From the NCBI GenBank assembly GCA_029265615.1, contig JAJUIB010000007.1, positions 1 to 64,000 of the forward strand: DNA of 64,000 nt, given 5' to 3'. This stretch comes from Spirochaetota bacterium. GTDB lineage: Bacteria > Spirochaetota > Spirochaetia > Treponematales > Rectinemataceae. The position numbers and the translations under genes are program-made. Below, one piece after another: positions 3,713-56,938 of the stretch. Every line of letters starts with the position of its first letter. Within the stretch, counting starts at the first letter, position 1. The notes below the pieces were generated by a model. The model was not told the origin of the DNA. It was given only the letters and a program-made list of their open reading frames with translations, and ran no database searches.

Positions 3713-3718
3713 TACCAT
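3713..3718 (+). promoter_or_regulatory. Candidate -10 box close to the homoserine dehydrogenase start
   Basis: TACCAT lies 6 bases before the ATG at 3725, with only a poor -35 (TTCCGT, 18 bases upstream). If used, transcription would begin at or next to the start codon. The evidence is weak on its own and rests on the same layout recurring elsewhere in the window. Confidence 0.3.
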
Positions 3719-3724
3719 GGAGCA

Positions 3725-4798
3725 ATGACACGAGAAGCTGCTCAGGACGCTCCCTGCGTCGACCTTGCAATAGCCGGCATGGGCAACGTGGGCCGCGCGC
3801 TCGCTACGATCATCGCACACCAGGGCGCAAATCTGCGAGTCGTTCTCATCGGTGACTCATCGGGCTCGCTCGCCGATCCCAATGGCTTCTCACCCTTTTC
3901 GCTCGTCGACCTAGCAGCACAAAAGGGATCTGGCGCTCGGATCGCGGACCTTTCGGGAGCCGCTTCTGGCGCCGCATCCTATGAAGCCGCGTTATGCGAT
4001 GCGATTGAACGCGCGCGCGCCGGGAAAAGACGGTTTATTCACGTAGAACTCGGGCCGACCGAGCTATCTCATGGCGGCAGCGCGCGCTCACGTTGCGAGC
4101 GCGCCCTTAAGAAGGGCGCGCGTGTCGCCTGCGCCGCCAAGGGCCCTCTTGTCGCGGGCTGGGAAGCTCTTGTCGCAGCGGCGGGCGGCGAAACGGCGTT
4201 TTGGGAGAATGCCCGCTTTAGCGCATCGGTCGGCGCGGGGCTCCCCCTCATCGAGGTTGGGCGGCAGCTCGCTCTCGGTTCGCCCCTCAACGGCATCGTC
4301 GCAGCCCTCAACGGCACCTCGAACCTCGTCCTCGGCCTCATGGAAGAGGGCGCCACACTCGAGGAAGCCGTGCGGCTTGCCCAGAGCCTCGGCATGGCGG
4401 AGGCTGACCCCGCGAACGACCTTGACGGCTGGGACCAGGCGGCGAAGCTCGTCATACTCGCCCGCGCGGTCTTCGGCGTCGCGCTGCCCCTTGAAGCGGT
4501 TGAACGCGAAAGCGTGCGCAACGCGAGCGCTACGCGGCTCGCCGACGCGCACACCTCAGGCTGCCGTCTCAGAGCAATCGGCCGACTGCGACGTAGTGAC
4601 GATGGAAAGCTGGCGGCGTCGGTGCGCCTCGAAAAGGTGCCAATGCTGTCGCCGCTCGCCTCAGGCGGCGGCAATGCCGCCGCCCTTTTCGACACCGCCT
4701 GGGCGGGCGAGGTGCTGGTGTCGGGAAGAGGCGCGGGCCCCCGCGAAACGGCAAGCGCGGTCTACCGGGACATTCGCATCCTTGCAAGGGGCACGTAA
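3725..4798 (+). CDS. Homoserine dehydrogenase (short form, no ACT domain)
   Basis: This 357-residue NAD(P)-dependent homoserine dehydrogenase reduces aspartate semialdehyde to homoserine on the way to threonine and methionine. The N-terminal Rossmann motif GMGNVGRAL lies near residue 13. The family's catalytic signature follows at about residues 195-250: NGTSNLVLGLMEEG, then AEADPANDLDGWDQAAKL with its conserved Asp and Lys residues. The C-terminal ACT regulatory domain of longer homologues is absent. I chose the ATG at 3725 because it puts the Rossmann motif at the usual distance from the start. A longer reading from 3665 would add an unlikely arginine-rich leader. There is no properly spaced Shine-Dalgarno, so the gene may be leaderless. 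No other threonine genes are nearby. Confidence 0.87.
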   Translation: MTREAAQDAPCVDLAIAGMGNVGRALATIIAHQGANLRVVLIGDSSGSLADPNGFSPFSLVDLAAQKGSGARIADLSGAASGAASYEAALCDAIERARAGKRRFIHVELGPTELSHGGSARSRCERALKKGARVACAAKGPLVAGWEALVAAAGGETAFWENARFSASVGAGLPLIEVGRQLALGSPLNGIVAALNGTSNLVLGLMEEGATLEEAVRLAQSLGMAEADPANDLDGWDQAAKLVILARAVFGVALPLEAVERESVRNASATRLADAHTSGCRLRAIGRLRRSDDGKLAASVRLEKVPMLSPLASGGGNAAALFDTAWAGEVLVSGRGAGPRETASAVYRDIRILARGT

Positions 4799-12366: not shown

Positions 12367-13163
12367 AGTTCCTCCTCGGGCCGAACGCGGGAAAGGCCAA
12401 AAAGCGTTCGCATGTCGGAGCGAAGGAGCGCATCGAGCTCCTCAAAGGAAAGGAGGAGTACGATCTCGCCCATGGCATAGGGCGCGATATCGTAGACATT
12501 GTAGTGGAACCCAAGGCCTTCCGCATGGACGAACAGGTTCGGGCTCGGCGGAACCGCGTCGACGAAGAACCCCGCCTCCTGAAGCGGGGTCCCTTCGGCG
12601 AGGCCCAAAACCTCCCGGGCCTTGCGGGTAAGAAGAGCGGAGAGCCGCGCATCCGAGCCGGGGATAAAGAGTTCAGCCAGGCCCAGCACCCGCCTCCCGC
12701 TAAGGTCGATGATCGCATATTCGGTACCGTACAGCCCATGCGCGCCGCCCCGGTATTCGGCACGCGAACAGCCCCGAACGAGGAGCCGCGCATCCGCGTA
12801 GGCTATGAACTCGCGCTCCTCGAAATACCAGGGATGCACCGCCTCGGGCCCGAACTCCTTATTTAGCCGTGCCGATTCCTCGCGGAATTTGCCAAAAAAC
12901 GCAGCCTCGAGAAGGGACAACGAGGATTCTGCCGAAGCTCCTCCGTGAAACACCGCGCGATACCAAGCCGCAAAGGCACGAGGCGAGCGCGGCTCGATGC
13001 GCATCGCGTCAAAGCGCGCGGGCTCTAGTCCGGCAGGTAACGAAGCACGTTCGTAGCCGCTACGGCGCACGAGGTCCAAAACGGGCGCCGACGCACAGGA
13101 GGCAAAGAGCGCACTGGCGCAAGCAGCAAACGCGCACCGAATAAGGGCGCGGCCCAAGGTCAT
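12363..13163 (-). CDS. DUF3298/RsiV-like lipoprotein
   Basis: This is a 266-residue exported lipoprotein with signal peptide and lipobox-like LFASC at about residues 19-23. The C-terminal half resembles the DUF3298 (RsiV/PdaC-associated) fold: a YRGGAHGL segment, then EGLGFHYNVYDIAPYAMG with the family's Tyr, Asn and Pro residues, and a helical end. In other bacteria this fold occurs in lysozyme-sensing anti-sigma factors and cell-wall deacetylases. No catalytic domain or sigma factor is present here, so the function is unknown. It is translationally coupled on both sides, to the TSCPD gene and to the MntR gene. ATG at 13163. Confidence 0.65.
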   Translation of the reverse strand: MTLGRALIRCAFAACASALFASCASAPVLDLVRRSGYERASLPAGLEPARFDAMRIEPRSPRAFAAWYRAVFHGGASAESSLSLLEAAFFGKFREESARLNKEFGPEAVHPWYFEEREFIAYADARLLVRGCSRAEYRGGAHGLYGTEYAIIDLSGRRVLGLAELFIPGSDARLSALLTRKAREVLGLAEGTPLQEAGFFVDAVPPSPNLFVHAEGLGFHYNVYDIAPYAMGEIVLLLSFEELDALLRSDMRTLFGLSRVRPEEEL

Positions 13164-13432
13164 GGACGGCCCGTCGCCTGTGCTTCGAGAGCACGGCGGA
13201 CTGCGCGGGCAAGCTGGTCGGGACAGGAGCTATCCTTGCCGCCGCAGCGGATGCCCTCGAGCCGCCGGATCACTTCCTCCGCCTCCATGCCTTCGACGAG
13301 GCGCGCAATCCCCGCAAGATTGCCCGGACAGCCGTTCTGGAACTCGACCGCGCGGACGCGGCCCTTTTCAAGCGAAAAGGAAACAGTGTCCGAACAGGTG
13401 CCTTCATTTATATGGCTAAACCGCTGATTCAT
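13160..13432 (-). CDS. TSCPD-domain protein (TIGR03905-like)
   Basis: This 90-residue protein contains the small TSCPD-type domain: GTCSDTVSFSLEKGRV, then FQNGCPGNLAGIARLVEGM and a GIRCGGKDSSCPDQLARAV end. The four cysteines are conserved in the family and suggest metal binding. The fold is also found at the end of class II ribonucleotide reductases, but stand-alone members have no proven function. It is first in the operon with the lipoprotein and MntR-type regulator. No Shine-Dalgarno precedes the ATG at 13432. A TTTACG/TACAGT promoter-like pair ends 9 bases before it. Confidence 0.75.
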   Translation of the reverse strand: MNQRFSHINEGTCSDTVSFSLEKGRVRAVEFQNGCPGNLAGIARLVEGMEAEEVIRRLEGIRCGGKDSSCPDQLARAVRRALEAQATGRP

Positions 13433-13441
13433 GATGGCTCA

Positions 13442-13471
13442 ACTGTACCAAAGGAGGGCGGGCTACGTAAA
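13442..13471 (-). promoter_or_regulatory. Candidate promoter of the TSCPD operon
   Basis: On the minus strand TTTACG, an 18-base spacer, then TACAGT; the -10 ends 9 bases before the ATG. This implies a very short or absent leader. Confidence 0.4.
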
Positions 13472-28642: not shown

Positions 28643-30385
28643 TTAGCGTTGACGCTCACCGATCGCGGCAAGGCGCGCGGCAAGGTAGGCGGAAACCTCC
28701 GCCGAGGAGGACATAGACATGACGGCAAGGGCGGCTTCTTCAGCCTCAACGGCGGAAACCGAACGGAGCAGCCGCTTCACCGCGGGGAGCGAGGCACTCG
28801 ACATCGAAAACTCCTCAAGGCCGAGCCCCAGGAGCAGAAAGGCGGCGGATGGATCCGAGGCCATTTCGCCACACATGCCGACAGGAATGCCCGCGGCCCG
28901 CCCGCTCTCGATTGTCTGCTTGACAAGGCGCAAGACCGAGGGCTGGTAGGGATCGTGTAGATAGGCAACCTTTTCGTTGCCACGATCGACCGCCATGGTG
29001 TACTGGATGAGATCATTTGTTCCGATCGAAAAAAAGTCGGCCCGCCGCGCGAGAATGTCGCTTGCGAGGGCGGCGGCGGGCACCTCGATCATAATGCCGA
29101 CTTTGATGTAGTCGGGCACCCTGTGGCCGCGGCGGCGGCACTCGGTCCGCGCCTCGACGACAAGCTCCCGCGCCCGCTCGAGTTCCTCGGGCGAAGAGAT
29201 CATGGGAAACATAATGCGCACATCGCCGTGGGCAGCCGCGCGAAGGATGGCGCGTAGCTGGGTGAGAAAGACCTCGCGGTTTGCGAGACAGAAGCGGATG
29301 GCGCGCCAGCCAAGGAGCGGGTTTTTCTCGTCGAGAGCGCCAAGTTCGGGAAGCACCTTGTCCCCGCCGATATCGAGCGTGCGGATGGTGACGGGGCGAC
29401 CGGCCATCGTCTCGACGACCCGGCGGTAGGCGCGATACTGCTCGTCTTCGCCGGGAACGTGTCCCGGCTGGAGGAAGAGGAACTCCGAGCGAAAGAGCCC
29501 AACCCCTTCGGCGCCATGCTCGACGGCGGCAAGGGCCTCCTCGGGCACCTCAATATTCGCCTTGAGGAGGAGCCGTCGGCCGTCAACCGTCGTAGCGGGA
29601 AGGTCGCGAAGTCCTGCAAGCTCACGTTCGAGGGCGGCGGCCGCAGCCTGTGCGGCCGCCGCGCGGGCGAGCGTTGCCGTATCAGGTTCGGCGACGACAA
29701 GGCCCCGGTCGCCATCGACGACGATGGTTTCGCCCGTGCGGATTTCCTCGACAAGCTCGCCGAGCCCGAGAACCGCAGGAATTTCGAAGGCGCGCGCGAG
29801 GATGGCGACATGACTCGTACGGCCGCCCGCCTCGGTTGCGATCGCCTTAACCCGCGCGCGGTTCAGAGAAATCATGTCCGAGGGAAGAAGGTCGCGGGCA
29901 ACAAGGATGATATCCGACTCGAGGTCGGCGAGGGTGAAGCGCTCCCGAAAAAGAAGGTGCGAGAGGATACGCCGCGTGACATCGTGGATATCGGCCGCAC
30001 GGGCCTGGAGATACGGATCCTCCGCGCCCGCGAGCTTTTCGACGAGCTCCCGCTCGAATTCGACGATAACCCGCTCGATGTTCCGATATGTGGCGTTAAG
30101 GTTCGCCTGAAGGCTTTCAAAAAGGTCGGGATCGGAGAGCATGAGGAGGTGGGCCTCGAAAATGGCGGCCTGCTCCTCGCCCGCGGTGGATCGCGCGCGA
30201 TCGCGCAACTCCTCGACCTCGGCCTTGGCCTTGTCGACCGCTCCGAGAAAGCGGTCCCACTCGCCCTCAATGGCGTCGGGTTCGAGGACGTAGCTCGGCA
30301 CCGAAAGCTCTTCTTCCTCGCGGAGGACGAAGGCGGGCGCCGCGACGACGCCCGGCGATGCCGGTATCCCTCGATATTCTCTCAT
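28643..30385 (-). CDS. ptsI: Phosphoenolpyruvate-protein phosphotransferase (PTS enzyme I)
   Basis: This 580-residue enzyme I passes phosphate from PEP to HPr. The phosphohistidine is His192 in GGRTSHVAIL. The PEP-binding barrel follows with GVGLFRSEFLFL, TIRTLDIGGDK, GWRAIRFCL, IMFPMISS and NDLIQYTMAVDR. The catalytic cysteine is in the GMCGEMASDP motif near the end. No HPr or sugar-specific EII gene is in view, so the enzyme may serve regulation as well as transport. A TTGACA/TAAAGT promoter ends only 8 bases before the ATG and there is no ribosome site, suggesting a leaderless message. Confidence 0.96.
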   Translation of the reverse strand: MREYRGIPASPGVVAAPAFVLREEEELSVPSYVLEPDAIEGEWDRFLGAVDKAKAEVEELRDRARSTAGEEQAAIFEAHLLMLSDPDLFESLQANLNATYRNIERVIVEFERELVEKLAGAEDPYLQARAADIHDVTRRILSHLLFRERFTLADLESDIILVARDLLPSDMISLNRARVKAIATEAGGRTSHVAILARAFEIPAVLGLGELVEEIRTGETIVVDGDRGLVVAEPDTATLARAAAAQAAAAALERELAGLRDLPATTVDGRRLLLKANIEVPEEALAAVEHGAEGVGLFRSEFLFLQPGHVPGEDEQYRAYRRVVETMAGRPVTIRTLDIGGDKVLPELGALDEKNPLLGWRAIRFCLANREVFLTQLRAILRAAAHGDVRIMFPMISSPEELERARELVVEARTECRRRGHRVPDYIKVGIMIEVPAAALASDILARRADFFSIGTNDLIQYTMAVDRGNEKVAYLHDPYQPSVLRLVKQTIESGRAAGIPVGMCGEMASDPSAAFLLLGLGLEEFSMSSASLPAVKRLLRSVSAVEAEEAALAVMSMSSSAEVSAYLAARLAAIGERQR

Positions 30386-30393
30386 GTGCTACG

Positions 30394-30422
30394 ACTTTAC
30401 CAGAATGGGGGATAGCTGTCAA
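30394..30422 (-). promoter_or_regulatory. ptsI promoter, predicted leaderless
   Basis: On the minus strand a perfect TTGACA (30422-30417), 17 bases, then TAAAGT (30399-30394). Only 8 bases separate the -10 from the ATG at 30385, so transcription would start about two bases before it. Confidence 0.6.
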
Positions 30423-30468
30423 AGCCCTAAAGCTTTGGCGGTAAAGGTCCGACGAGCCGCGCCTAAGC

Positions 30469-31338
30469 CTACCGGCGAACACCGAAGCGGTCGATGACGA
30501 TGTTCACCTCTTCGATGAGAATACCGGTGAAGCGTTCGATGTTCTCGATGATGTATTCCTGGAGGGCGCGGGCGTTCTGCGCGAGCTTGGTGCCATAGGG
30601 CACCTCGAGGACGAGGGTGAGGCGGTAGCCCTGCGTATCGGAGCGGATGGTGAGCTTGCGCACGCGGACCGAGTCGTCAAACTCGTCGACACAGTGGATG
30701 ACCATCTGGGAAAGGGCCGCCTCGGATATCGAAACACGGCCCCGCTTCGCATACTCAGGCCGGACCACGGATTTTTCGTAGAGGCGCGGCCGCGCCGGCG
30801 CCGCACCGAAACTCCGCTTGAGAAAAACGCGGATCGAATCGTAGAAAATCGAAGGGTAATTCCGCCTGATTTCGAGCGCGGGAACGGGGATGACGTGCTT
30901 CCCCTCGACTTTTCGCGAGCGAACCGCCTTCGCGATCTCCTCTTGGCTCGCGATGTCCTCGATCTTCACGACCTTGACCGGGTGGGGAATCTGCAGTCGG
31001 TCGCAGATCCGCGTCACCATGCGTTCGGAAGTGCCGATAACGAGGATTTTGCGGAATTTCTCGCGCTGAAGGGCGCGGGCGACCTCGTCGCGGTGCGCTT
31101 TATCGTGAAACAGCGCGGTCTTCACGGCGGCCATGTAGAGCTGCTCCTTTTTCGCGGATTTGCCTGCGACGATGGAGTCGCCCCGGATGAGAAGGCCATC
31201 GTCGATGATCATCTCGATCCCGTACTTCTGCGCAACGAGCTTGGCGCGGAAGCTCTTTCCCGTCCCGCTCTCGCCGACGAGTGCATACACACGGACGCCC
31301 CGCGCGAGCCAGAGAACCTCGCTGAAAAATCGCAACAT
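30469..31338 (-). CDS. P-loop NTPase fused to an Asp23/Gls24 domain
   Basis: This 289-residue protein has two parts. The N-terminal NTPase (about 1-190) has Walker A GESGTGKSFRAKL at residues 23-35 and a DDGLL acidic segment. The C-terminal part (about 205-289) matches the Asp23/Gls24 (alkaline-shock, DUF322) family: GRVSISEAALSQMVIHCVD, then LTLVLEVPYGTKL and AQNARALQEYIIENIERFTG with the VNIVID end. Asp23 domains act as small scaffolding or membrane-associated proteins in Firmicutes; fused to an NTPase the function is unknown. The promoter TTGCTT/TATAGT ends 8 bases before the ATG. The gene is divergent from flgN. Confidence 0.75.
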   Translation of the reverse strand: MLRFFSEVLWLARGVRVYALVGESGTGKSFRAKLVAQKYGIEMIIDDGLLIRGDSIVAGKSAKKEQLYMAAVKTALFHDKAHRDEVARALQREKFRKILVIGTSERMVTRICDRLQIPHPVKVVKIEDIASQEEIAKAVRSRKVEGKHVIPVPALEIRRNYPSIFYDSIRVFLKRSFGAAPARPRLYEKSVVRPEYAKRGRVSISEAALSQMVIHCVDEFDDSVRVRKLTIRSDTQGYRLTLVLEVPYGTKLAQNARALQEYIIENIERFTGILIEEVNIVIDRFGVRR

Positions 31339-31346
31339 GTGCTTTG

Positions 31347-31375
31347 ACTATACAGGCGACAAGGCGGGGAAGCAA
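31347..31375 (-). promoter_or_regulatory. Promoter of the NTPase-Asp23 gene, predicted leaderless
   Basis: TTGCTT (31375-31370), 17 bases, TATAGT (31352-31347), then 8 bases to the ATG. This is the same geometry as at ptsI. Confidence 0.6.
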
Positions 31376-35144: not shown

Positions 35145-35168
35145 AGCCCGGCATAGTGGTCGAACGTC

Positions 35169-35609
35169 ATGAAATTCAGCACCAAGGCCTACGGCGAGAT
35201 CGAGATCGACGAGCGACAGCGCGTGCGCTTCCCCTCGGGGCTTCTCGGCTTTGAAAAGTTCACCGACTATGCCCTCCTCGATGCGCGGCAGAAGCCCTTT
35301 TTCTACCTCCAGTCGCTTGAGGTCCCCGAGCTCGCCTTCATCCTCATCGATCCCTTCCTCTTTCGCCCTGACTATTCCATCGATGTCGGCGACGAGACGC
35401 TCGCCGATATCGGCCTTGCGGGCCCCGAGGACGCCCTGGTCTTCGCCATCGTCACCGCGCCGAGCGACGGCAGCCCCATCACGGCGAACCTCATGGGGCC
35501 GGTCATCATCTCGCGGACGACGCGGCTCGGCATGCAGGCGGTACTCGCCGATCCGCGCTGGCGCGTCAAGCACGATGTGATGGCCGAACTCGCCGCCTCG
35601 AGGAAGTGA
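35169..35609 (+). CDS. fliW: Flagellar assembly factor FliW
   Basis: This 146-residue FliW binds flagellin and, when free, binds and inhibits CsrA, so that flagellin translation matches export. Sequence matches are [19 protein letters not shown] at residues 11-29, then [20 protein letters not shown] and [20 protein letters not shown] near the end, all conserved FliW blocks. It lies 24 bases after flgL and 4 bases before csrA, its regulatory partner, which is the standard spirochaete and Firmicutes arrangement. Confidence 0.96.
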
Positions 35610-42128: not shown

Positions 42129-42806
42129 TCAACCGCTACGCGCATAGCGGAAGGAGAGGCGTTGTGCGGGCGAGGGTCCCAGGCGTTCGCACAGAGCGCG
42201 GTGCTCCTGAGTCGGGTAGCCCTTGTGCCGGGCGTATCCATACTCGGGATAGAGCCAGTCGAGCCGCTCCATGGCGCGATCGCGCGCGACCTTGGCAAGG
42301 ATGGATGCGGCCATGATCGCAGGGACGACCGCATCCCCTCGCACCACCGCGGCGCAGGGCCGGGCGAGGGGTGGCAGGCGGTTCCCGTCCACGTAGAGCT
42401 CTGAAGGAGCAGCAAGGCCCCGGGCGGAAAGCGCCGCCTCGAGCGCCGCATAGGCCCGCCCCATCGCGAGAAAAGTCGCGCCGAGTATGTTGAGCGTGTC
42501 GATTTCCGCGGGGGAAGCCCAGTCGATAGCCCAGGCGAGGGCGCGCTCGACAATGAGCGCATAGGCCACCTCGCGCCGCGCCGCGGAGAGCGCCTTCGAG
42601 TCAGCAAGACAGGCAAGGGGGAAGTCCTCGGGAAGCACCACTGCCGCCGCGTAGACAGGGCCCGCAAGCGGACCGCGCCCCGCTTCGTCAATGCCGCAGA
42701 CCCGCGGCCCCTGGGGCACGCCGTCTGCAAAATCCCCGGCGCGAAGGGCTTCCCCCTTGCGCCGCGCACGCGGGCTCGATAGCCCGTCGAAAAGTTCATC
42801 CTGCAT
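42129..42806 (-). CDS. rnhB: Ribonuclease HII
   Basis: This 225-residue enzyme removes RNA from RNA-DNA hybrids and single ribonucleotides from DNA. The catalytic site starts at VCGIDEAGRGPLAGPV (D40, E41), followed by LADSKALS, the third Asp in ELYVDGNRLPP and the last acidic residue in SILAKVARDRAM. The HKGYPTQEH motif near the end is typical of type 2 RNases H. About 33 extra N-terminal residues precede the core. The start at 42806 has no clear ribosome site. It is divergent from the DapF-like gene. Confidence 0.95.
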   Translation of the reverse strand: MQDELFDGLSSPRARRKGEALRAGDFADGVPQGPRVCGIDEAGRGPLAGPVYAAAVVLPEDFPLACLADSKALSAARREVAYALIVERALAWAIDWASPAEIDTLNILGATFLAMGRAYAALEAALSARGLAAPSELYVDGNRLPPLARPCAAVVRGDAVVPAIMAASILAKVARDRAMERLDWLYPEYGYARHKGYPTQEHRALCERLGPSPAQRLSFRYARSG

Positions 42807-42883
42807 TAGGCTTTAAGGATAGCCCGAGGGAGGAATGAAAATCCATGAGCGCAGGACCGTTTCCGCGCACAGGACATCCGCGA

Positions 42884-42889
42884 TAGAAT
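42884..42889 (+). promoter_or_regulatory. -10 box abutting the DapF-like start
   Basis: TAGAAT lies 6 bases before the ATG at 42896; the -35 is poor (TTCCGC at 17 bases). No Shine-Dalgarno is present, so a leaderless start is plausible. Confidence 0.4.
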
Positions 42890-42895
42890 GAGCGC

Positions 42896-43768
42896 ATGGA
42901 TCTCCGCTTCTACAAGCTCCGCGTCTGTTCCACGGACATACTCCTCATCGACGACCTTGCGGGACAGGATCGCGATCGCGACTGGCCGGCCGCCGCGCAC
43001 GCCCTCCTTGACCGACGGCGGGGCGCCGGTGCGGAGCAGCTCGCCGTCCTCTCACAGGCGGAGTCGGCGCTCTGGCTCCGCGTCTTCGAGTCAGGCGGCG
43101 ATACGGCGGCATCCTTCCATGACGCGGCGCTCTGCGCAGCCCGCTACCTTCTCGACTCGGGGCGCGGGGGGCGGGACCGCGTAGAGCTCCGCGTGTCAGG
43201 CGGCCTCATGCAGGTGGACGTGCTCGATGCGGCGAGTCTCGGGCTGTCGCTCGGCCCCCCGCGCGGCATCCCCGGCGGCGAGACCCTGAATCTCGGAGAG
43301 CTCGCGTCCCGACGTTGCCTTGTCGAAAGCGGCACAGAACGCTACGAGGCACTCCCCCTCGCCCTCGGCTCAGGCGCCTGCGAACGTCCCGGGGTTTTTC
43401 CCCTCAGCGCCGATGCGGACAGGCGTACCGAGGCGGTCGCGGTTCTCTGCGAAGGAGGAACGCGCAAGATTCGGGTAAAGATAGGCGGCGCAACGCCGCG
43501 CTCGCGGCCGCGAGCGCTCCCCATCCGCCTCGTGGCCCGCGGCGAACTCTGGGCGCGGCCGCCGCGCGGCATCGGCGCCGCAACCGCAGCGGGCATCGCC
43601 CTTGCGGCTGCGGCCGCGGCGGGGCAGTCCGACCGCGAGGCACTAGTGCGGCTGCCCGGCGGTGCGTTGTGGGTCGAATGGACCGAGTCGGGATCGCTCT
43701 ACACGGGAGCGCGTCCCGATTACGTCTATCGCGGCGAATTCCACCTCGACGACTACAAGCTCGCCTAA
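42896..43768 (+). CDS. Diaminopimelate epimerase-like protein, catalytically degenerate
   Basis: This 290-residue protein has the overall plan of DapF: MDLRFYKLRVCSTDILLID as the first strand pair, LWLRVFESGGDTAASFHDAAL where DapF has its first catalytic loop, and PRGIGAATAAGIALAAAAAA where DapF has its second. The ending, LPGGALWVEWTESGSLYTGA followed by YVYRGEF, is very DapF-like. Neither catalytic cysteine motif (CGNG, ACGTGA) is conserved: residues 72-76 read ASFHD and the second loop has Ala in place of Cys. It is therefore probably not an epimerase. It could be a scaffold, a binding protein or a decaying paralogue; the frame is intact and GC-rich at third positions. Confidence 0.7.
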   Translation: MDLRFYKLRVCSTDILLIDDLAGQDRDRDWPAAAHALLDRRRGAGAEQLAVLSQAESALWLRVFESGGDTAASFHDAALCAARYLLDSGRGGRDRVELRVSGGLMQVDVLDAASLGLSLGPPRGIPGGETLNLGELASRRCLVESGTERYEALPLALGSGACERPGVFPLSADADRRTEAVAVLCEGGTRKIRVKIGGATPRSRPRALPIRLVARGELWARPPRGIGAATAAGIALAAAAAAGQSDREALVRLPGGALWVEWTESGSLYTGARPDYVYRGEFHLDDYKLA

Positions 43769-56030: not shown

Positions 56031-56058
56031 TTCACGCAGGCCGTTTACTGGCTATAGT
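56031..56058 (+). promoter_or_regulatory. Promoter of the PHP-phosphatase gene, predicted leaderless
   Basis: TTCACG, a 16-base spacer and TATAGT, 7 bases before the GTG at 56066. No Shine-Dalgarno precedes the gene. Confidence 0.5.
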
Positions 56059-56065
56059 GCTTGAC

Positions 56066-56938
56066 GTGCGTGCGAACTACCATACCCACTGCGATTTTTG
56101 CGACGGGCGCGCCTCAGCGGCGGCGATGGCCCTTGCGGCGCGACGCGCGGGCTACGACGTGCTCGGCTTTTCCTCCCATGCGCCCCTCTCCTATCCCACA
56201 AGCTGGGCGCTACCCGTTGAACGCCTCGACGAATACGCCGCGGAGGTGCGCCGCCTCCGCGCCGCCTGGGCGCCCGGCGGTGAGGCAGCCCGCGACCACG
56301 GGCCCATGGAAGTACTCCTCGGTCTTGAGATCGACTGGTGGCCGGGGGAACGCACGCCCGGCGACGGCGCCTTCGACCGGCTCGGCCTCGACTTCGCGAT
56401 CGGCTCGGTCCACAGCGTCGAGATCGAGGGAACGGGGCCCTTCACCGTCGATGGATCACGAGCCGAATTCGAAGAGGCAATCCGGATGCGCTCGAGAGGT
56501 AACGCATCCCGGATATGGCAAGAGTACTATGCGCGCCTTGGCGCGCTCATCGATGCGGGCGGCTTCGACATCCTTGGACACTTCGACCTGGTCAAAAAGA
56601 ACAACGCCGATGGCGCCTTTTTTGACGAAGGCGGCACAGACTACCTCGATGCGGCCTTTGAAGCAGCGGGGCGGCTCAAAGGTCGCAGCATCGTCGTCGA
56701 GATAAACTTAGGCGGCATGGCGCGGGGAAAAACGCGCGAGCCCTACCCTTCCCTTCCCATCCTCCGGGAGCTCCGGAGGCTCGACGTGCCGATCACGTTC
56801 TGCGCGGACGCCCACGACGTTCCGCACCTCGGCGCACACCTTGATGCCGCGCGCGAACTAGCACGGCAAGCGGGATACCGTTCCGTCGCGGTGCTCTCAG
56901 GCGGTCGCTGGACCGAGGTCGGCATCGAGGCGACCTAG
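56066..56938 (+). CDS. PHP-family histidinol-phosphatase-like enzyme
   Basis: This 290-residue metal-dependent phosphatase of the PHP family resembles the HisK/HisJ histidinol-phosphatase type. Metal-binding motifs are NYHTHCDFCDG at the start, GFSSHAPLS, LGLEIDWWPG, IGSVHSVEI, DILGHFDLVKK and CADAHDVPHLG near the end. The normal complement of His, Asp and Glu residues is present. It likely hydrolyses histidinol phosphate in histidine synthesis, but no other his gene is near and PHP specificity is broad. Start is the GTG at 56066 or 56057; both lack a ribosome site and the former fits a leaderless transcript. Confidence 0.85.
   Translation: MRANYHTHCDFCDGRASAAAMALAARRAGYDVLGFSSHAPLSYPTSWALPVERLDEYAAEVRRLRAAWAPGGEAARDHGPMEVLLGLEIDWWPGERTPGDGAFDRLGLDFAIGSVHSVEIEGTGPFTVDGSRAEFEEAIRMRSRGNASRIWQEYYARLGALIDAGGFDILGHFDLVKKNNADGAFFDEGGTDYLDAAFEAAGRLKGRSIVVEINLGGMARGKTREPYPSLPILRELRRLDVPITFCADAHDVPHLGAHLDAARELARQAGYRSVAVLSGGRWTEVGIEAT

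Follow-up and report, generated by a model that had tools for sequence, protein, structure and literature searches.

Candidate leaderless starts beside Shine-Dalgarno-led genes in a Rectinemataceae genome

Promoter boxes before ptsI and its upstream neighbour

This study concerns a 64,000-nucleotide (nt) stretch of DNA from an uncultured Spirochaetota bacterium, here called the window (positions 1 to 64,000 of contig JAJUIB010000007.1, assembly GCA_029265615.1). It comes from a metagenome-assembled genome (MAG) of 2.70 Mb in 47 contigs, which belongs to the family Rectinemataceae, order Treponematales. We focus on promoter -10 boxes placed directly before start codons that lack a Shine-Dalgarno (SD) site. 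Genes with such starts are candidates for leaderless translation. Two of them lie side by side on the minus strand. The first is ptsI, encoding PTS enzyme I (28643-30385; TIGR01417 score 591.7, cut-off 341.7). The second, at 30469-31338, adjoins ptsI on the upstream side in the MAG. It encodes a P-loop NTPase-like part and a C-terminal Asp23 domain (Pfam Asp23 29.3 bits, cut-off 28).

Upstream of ptsI, the -10 box TAAAGT (30394-30399) lies 8 nt from the ATG at 30385. The box is preceded by TG and is of the extended -10 type TGGTAAAGT. A -35 element, TTGACA (30417-30422), is found at a spacing of 17 bp. The NTPase-Asp23 gene has TATAGT (31347-31352) 8 nt from its ATG at 31338 and TTGCTT (31370-31375) as its -35, again 17 bp apart. 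The original prediction, that TTGACA-17-TAAAGT-8-ATG and TTGCTT-17-TATAGT-8-ATG share an identical geometry, is borne out. Candidate sites in the window carry no SD word of at least 4 bases. Both genes also share the letters gcacATG. As a signal this was rejected; it is not kept in relatives, so we take it as coincidence.

Conservation was assessed in same-family genomes and in other families of the order (labelled f3, f4 and f5). Copies were excluded if identity was below 40%, if the alignment started after residue 12 or if fewer than 60 nt lay upstream; copies more distant than these filters allow fall outside the counts. With the window's own copy, 23 of 30 loci were used for ptsI and all 30 for the NTPase-Asp23 gene. 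Counts given below leave out the own copy unless stated. The pattern TANNNT occurred 5-10 nt before the ATG in 21 of 22 usable ptsI copies. For the NTPase-Asp23 gene, it was found at 5-10 nt in 24 of 29 copies and at 6-12 nt in 28 of 29. Own copies included, shuffled means were 2.11 of 23 and 2.63 of 30, respectively. On the same basis, TTTGAC was kept in 19 of 23 ptsI loci, TGnTAnnnT in 16 of 23 and both in 15. Another 35 Asp23 loci, largely from the same genomes again, were counted apart and had the box at 5-10 nt in 24 of 31. The Asp23 protein itself was matched in 56 of 58 genomes searched, own included, and in named spirochaete records including Rectinema subterraneum.

Excess of the -10 box in a sample of the genome

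A count of -10 motifs near SD-less starts, proposed with the original prediction, was run on 809.9 kb (30% of the MAG). This sample holds 646 called genes, each of at least 80 residues. The gene caller was hexamer-based and blind to SD sites and promoters. Genes were taken as first in their unit (n = 344) if the gap to the neighbour measured 30 nt or more in divergent orientation, or 40 nt or more on the same strand. A box was scored where TANNNT lay at 5-10 nt upstream of the start, with dinucleotide shuffles as background. SD words of at least 5 bases were classed as strong; the other classes were a 4-base word and no word of 4 bases. Starts with a box and without SD are termed leaderless-type here, as opposed to SD-led starts.

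Across all genes, the box was present in 70 of 646 compared with 24.8 ± 5.0 in shuffled sequence (highest of 60 shuffles, 35). Hence, boxes no commoner than in shuffled sequence, the outcome named beforehand as refuting, did not appear. The excess was clear among first-in-unit genes without SD, where 48 of 169 had the box and 8.6 ± 2.7 were expected (highest of 200 shuffles, 15). Among first-in-unit genes with an SD word of at least 5 bases it was found in none of 112, against 5.2 expected. Same-strand genes with a gap below 40 nt, presumed operon-internal, showed no clear excess (10/261 versus 6.5). These three results indicate that the two modes are mutually exclusive and that the box occurs where promoters are needed. 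Subtracting the shuffled background leaves about 7% of all genes, and about 11% of those first in their unit. In an E. coli K-12 control (150 kb, same pipeline) there was no excess, with 6 of 129 observed and 11.3 expected.

The 48 candidates were picked by the -10 box alone, so evidence from the -35 element is independent. In half of them (24 of 48) a TTG stood 15-19 bp from the box. When the search was shifted by 10 or 20 bp, this fell to 3, 6 and 1. We also searched for two-box promoters, defined as TTG or TTTAC, 16-18 bp and TANNNT, in eight distance bins. The bin at 5-10 nt was the fullest, with 29 of 344 first-in-unit genes compared with 0.52 in shuffled sequence. The commonest gap was 6 nt (17 first-in-unit genes without SD versus 1.5 expected). 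The textbook placement of the -10 box is -12 to -7. Hence, a 6-nt gap would put +1 on the A of ATG. The upstream neighbour was divergent for 33 of the 48 and on the same strand for 15. Leaderless-type starts showed no excess of co-occurrence in divergent pairs (4/77 versus 2.96 expected), and divergent gaps at these starts were not clearly shorter (median 152 versus 177, p = 0.052). No distinctive function class emerged when 20 other candidates were scanned with Pfam; they ranged from various enzymes and kinases to transport and regulatory proteins, and 3 had no hit at 1e-10.

Similar counts were made in relatives, on stretches that all come from contigs carrying the Asp23 gene. In same-family genomes the box was present in 39 of 121 first genes without SD (9.3 expected) and in none of 75 with an SD word of at least 5 bases. 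Family f4 gave 18 of 50 (1.9 expected) and none of 42. A TTG -35 accompanied 13 of the 18 boxes in f4, compared with 1, 0 and 0 when shifted. The contrast was weaker in the same family (10/39 versus 2, 2 and 5). Two-box promoters were found in 15 of 237 same-family first genes (1.04 in shuffles), 12 of 107 in f4 (0.04), 7 of 85 in f5 (0.94) and 6 of 65 in f3 (0.92). The putative promoter signal is thus present in other families of Treponematales too.

Proposed transcript starts at the start codon, and the alternatives

SD-led initiation is evident in the same genome. An SD word of at least 5 bases precedes 112 of 344 first-in-unit genes. Most other genes had been thought to carry strong GGAGG sites, which was right in part. 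Such a word was present in 118 of the first 320 genes sampled; 66 had a 4-base word and 136 had none. A search of the MAG for 16S sequence found none, and an Rfam scan of the window gave no match. Of 12 16S loci examined in relatives, 9 retain the CCTCC anti-SD tail, two same-family genomes among them, and the other 3 are partial matches. Initiation mode also tends to be kept between orthologues. In same-family pairs, leaderless-type starts were matched by leaderless-type starts in 10 of 13 cases (6 of 7 once the Asp23 gene is set aside), while SD-led starts were matched by leaderless-type starts in 0 of 23. These counts include 6 same-family pairs for the Asp23 gene, which is over-sampled. 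The single leaderless-type pair in f4 agreed (1/1). The prediction that two initiation modes coexist is hence supported by box position, two-box anatomy, missing SD sites, exclusivity and conservation in relatives.

We propose that sigma-70-type promoters start the transcript at, or no more than about 4 nt before, the start codon, and that the SD-less mRNA is most likely translated leaderless, beside SD-led genes. We put the probability of this at roughly 90%. At the level of sequence, our data demonstrate two-box promoter anatomy at the start codon, the missing SD site and conservation; we infer the exact +1 and leader-free loading of ribosomes. Briefly, RNA polymerase with the housekeeping sigma would begin the mRNA on the first base of ATG or as much as about 4 nt earlier, and the mRNA would therefore have no SD site. 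The 5'-terminal AUG or GUG would be recognised directly with initiator tRNA. For ptsI and the NTPase-Asp23 gene, with gaps of 8 nt, +1 would fall on the A that stands two bases upstream of ATG, or on ATG itself. Initiation factor 2 and subunits loaded with initiator tRNA are described as central to leaderless initiation (PMC10783764).

Of the alternatives, the one that survives best is that these promoters are used but a leadered mRNA, from a promoter further upstream, is the main translated form. We consider this improbable. Read-through is possible at ptsI, since it lies 83 bp downstream of the NTPase-Asp23 gene on the same strand, and 15 of the 48 candidates have an upstream neighbour in the same orientation. 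However, a longer mRNA would still be without an SD site, and the neighbour is divergent at the other 33. Alternatively, the promoters may be real but serve ordinary short leaders, with an SD-led start further downstream and the present starts misplaced. Coding-score starts equalled annotated starts in 90 of 129 E. coli genes, which leaves some room for such errors. Even so, the prospect is slim. An SD-led in-frame start within codons 2-41 was found in 1 of 48 leaderless-type genes, compared with 10 of 112 SD-led genes; in relatives the figures were 5 of 57 and 12 of 117. Furthermore, domain matches begin at residue 5-6 in ptsI and at residue 3-5 in a PHP-domain gene described below, and relatives' copies share the start codon.

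Chance is less credible again. TANNNT is a loose pattern, favourable cases could have been picked, and shuffling predicts 13.57 matches among the first 320 genes. A box before a homoserine dehydrogenase gene, considered below, may be such a case. For the class as a whole, chance is already refuted by the 48 boxes against 8.6 in first genes without SD, by the 29 two-box promoters against 0.52 and by layouts conserved in copies down to 40-48% identity. Least probable is that the AT-rich box is a translational feature, such as an unstructured or S1-binding region, rather than a promoter: S1 binding has been discussed as a further cause of AT-rich bias upstream of non-SD starts (PMC5397173), but a -35 stands 15-19 bp from the box in half of the MAG cases, ptsI keeps TTTGAC in 19 of 23 copies and the TGnTA box in 16 of 23, start regions fold as in SD-led genes, and operon-internal genes of the MAG lack a clear excess.

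Several observations weigh against promoters at the start codon with leaderless translation. Chance alone would account for about 9 of the 48 candidates. Individual start calls are uncertain because the caller was correct in only 90 of the 129 E. coli K-12 genes, although this likely blurs the MAG counts rather than inflating them. In four NTPase-Asp23 copies the box lies no closer than 11-12 nt, which would mean a short leader of a few bases, and a fifth copy lacks it altogether. SD words of at least 5 bases occur in 2 of 30 NTPase-Asp23, 1 of 23 ptsI and 1 of 10 copies of a DapF-like gene of the window, and 4-base words in several more. One of 4 SD-led genes of the MAG was paired with a leaderless-type copy in f4. 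Start regions of leaderless-type genes were not less structured than those of SD-led genes (fold 0-45: p = 0.84 in this genome, 0.50 in others); one low value, p = 0.0063, came from leaderless-type versus "other" genes of relatives (fold 0-30). In lower-GC relatives the signal appears only in the no-SD and two-box tests. All-gene counts of TANNNT did not exceed shuffles in f5 (14/87 versus 15.8; 8/61 versus 8.2) or f3 (17/88 versus 17.6; 11/64 versus 12.4). They were not clearly above shuffles in lower-GC same-family genomes G013 (10/96 versus 7.3) and G023 (13/116 versus 8.7).

The homoserine dehydrogenase gene belongs with these observations. A weaker version of the layout had been proposed here, and a weak -10-like TACCAT (3713-3718, plus strand) does lie 6 nt from the ATG at 3725. 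The site is doubtful and has no recognisable -35. Only the own copy could be used (1 of 6 loci, these being 6 of 25), and two further orthologues were inspected. The orthologue from the same genus (L151, G001) has GGAGG before its ATG and TACAAT 19 nt upstream. The orthologue in G004 also has an SD-like site. Here the proposal finds no support in the orthologues. The two species, members of one genus, may differ through a switch in initiation mode, or the box in the window may be a chance match.

The Leptospira lineage lies outside Treponematales. A leaderless transcriptome study has reportedly been made in M. tuberculosis (PMC3898074). In L. interrogans, a member of the same phylum, differential RNA sequencing is reported to give about 440 mRNAs with a 5' untranslated region below 10 nt, beside leadered ones (PMC5243855). 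The coexistence resembles that proposed for the MAG, although it was mapped experimentally there and is inferred from sequence here, and L. interrogans is an AT-rich pathogen. Leaderless genes are likewise described beside SD-led ones in Deinococcus and Mycobacterium (PMC3160421, PMC5243855). In the high-GC genome of Deinococcus, a TAnnnT box immediately precedes the start, and predicted leaderless genes average 39.4% in Deinococcus-Thermus (PMC3160421). The fraction in the MAG is far lower. Of 18 spirochaete genomes, 6 were predicted by Zheng et al. 2011 to have leaderless (TA-led) genes, with a mean of 3.9% of genes (range 1.8-6.9; PMC3160421). Our candidates resemble these TA-led genes, in which TANNNT about 12 bp before the start is read as leaderless. 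The MAG excess of about 7% comes from a different method, and is accompanied by -35 boxes and by layouts conserved among relatives. Treponema, Spirochaeta and Leptospira are not named in the main text of that paper (PMC3160421). Among the literature matches listed on leaderless genes in spirochaetes (Treponema, Borrelia), Asp23 and Rectinema, no title or start of an abstract dealt with leaderless genes in this group. Given these earlier predictions for spirochaetes and the mapping in Leptospira, our observations represent a new lineage of a known phenomenon. They point to leaderless starts as a steady trait of a little-studied order of spirochaetes, many of whose members are known only through metagenomes, and not of Leptospira alone.

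Other genes in the window

The layout was also predicted at a PHP phosphatase gene (56031-56066) and a TSCPD-domain gene (13432-13471), and both sites are present. The first, at 56066-56938 on the plus strand, encodes a HisJ-like protein (Pfam PHP 51.2 bits; NCBIfam HisJ models just below cut-offs). Its -10 box, TATAGT (56053-56058), lies 7 nt from the GTG at 56066. A -35-like TTCACG (56031-56036) is spaced 16 bp away; relatives have no clear -35 by eye. Own copy included, 20 of 30 loci were used. TANNNT was found at 5-10 nt in 17 of 19 copies, compared with a shuffled mean of 1.04 of 20 (own copy included). The coding score placed the start at 56057, overlapping the gene's own -10 box. Relatives' copies align at GTG 56066, and the domain match starts at residue 3-5. 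Hence, gene callers that ignore the promoter can misplace such starts, as at 56057 instead of 56066.

The TSCPD gene is a leaderless candidate at 13160-13432 on the minus strand (TIGR03905 100.8 bits, cut-off 67.7). TACAGT (13442-13447) lies 9 nt from the ATG at 13432, with TTTACG (13466-13471) as -35 at a spacing of 18 bp. All 4 loci were used, own copy included. Relatives yielded 3 copies, 2 of them with the layout (shuffled mean 0.47 of 4, own copy included).

A weaker form of the layout was proposed at the DapF-like gene, and this one withstood comparison with relatives. The gene occupies 42896-43768 on the plus strand (Pfam DAP_epimerase 38.6 bits, cut-off 34.7; NCBIfam DapF below cut-off). 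TAGAAT (42884-42889) lies 6 nt from the ATG at 42896, with TTCCGC 17 bp further upstream. From the best 17 of 20 loci, 10 were used, own copy included. The layout recurs in all 9 usable copies from relatives, one of which also has an SD word (shuffled mean 0.36 of 10, own copy included). The -35 element is not clear for the PHP, DapF-like and homoserine dehydrogenase genes.

The conserved ptsI, NTPase-Asp23, PHP and DapF-like genes are specific test genes. Selection may have kept this set leaderless across families of Treponematales, rather than letting it drift between modes, but we regard this as rather unlikely. If true, a conserved leaderless set would suggest shared translational control, such as coordinated output when the balance of initiation factors, or stress, favours leaderless mRNAs.

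Two minor observations concern other starts in the window. An 89-bp region (42806-42896) separates the divergent ribonuclease HII and DapF-like genes, and a -10-like box sits beside each start. The ribonuclease HII box is TATCCT (42816-42821, minus strand), 9 nt from the ATG at 42806. This start is uncertain because the domain begins only at about residue 34-37. Finally, upstream of fliW (35152-35169), CATAGT lies 11 nt from the ATG where no SD word is present, and this is possibly a short-leader promoter.

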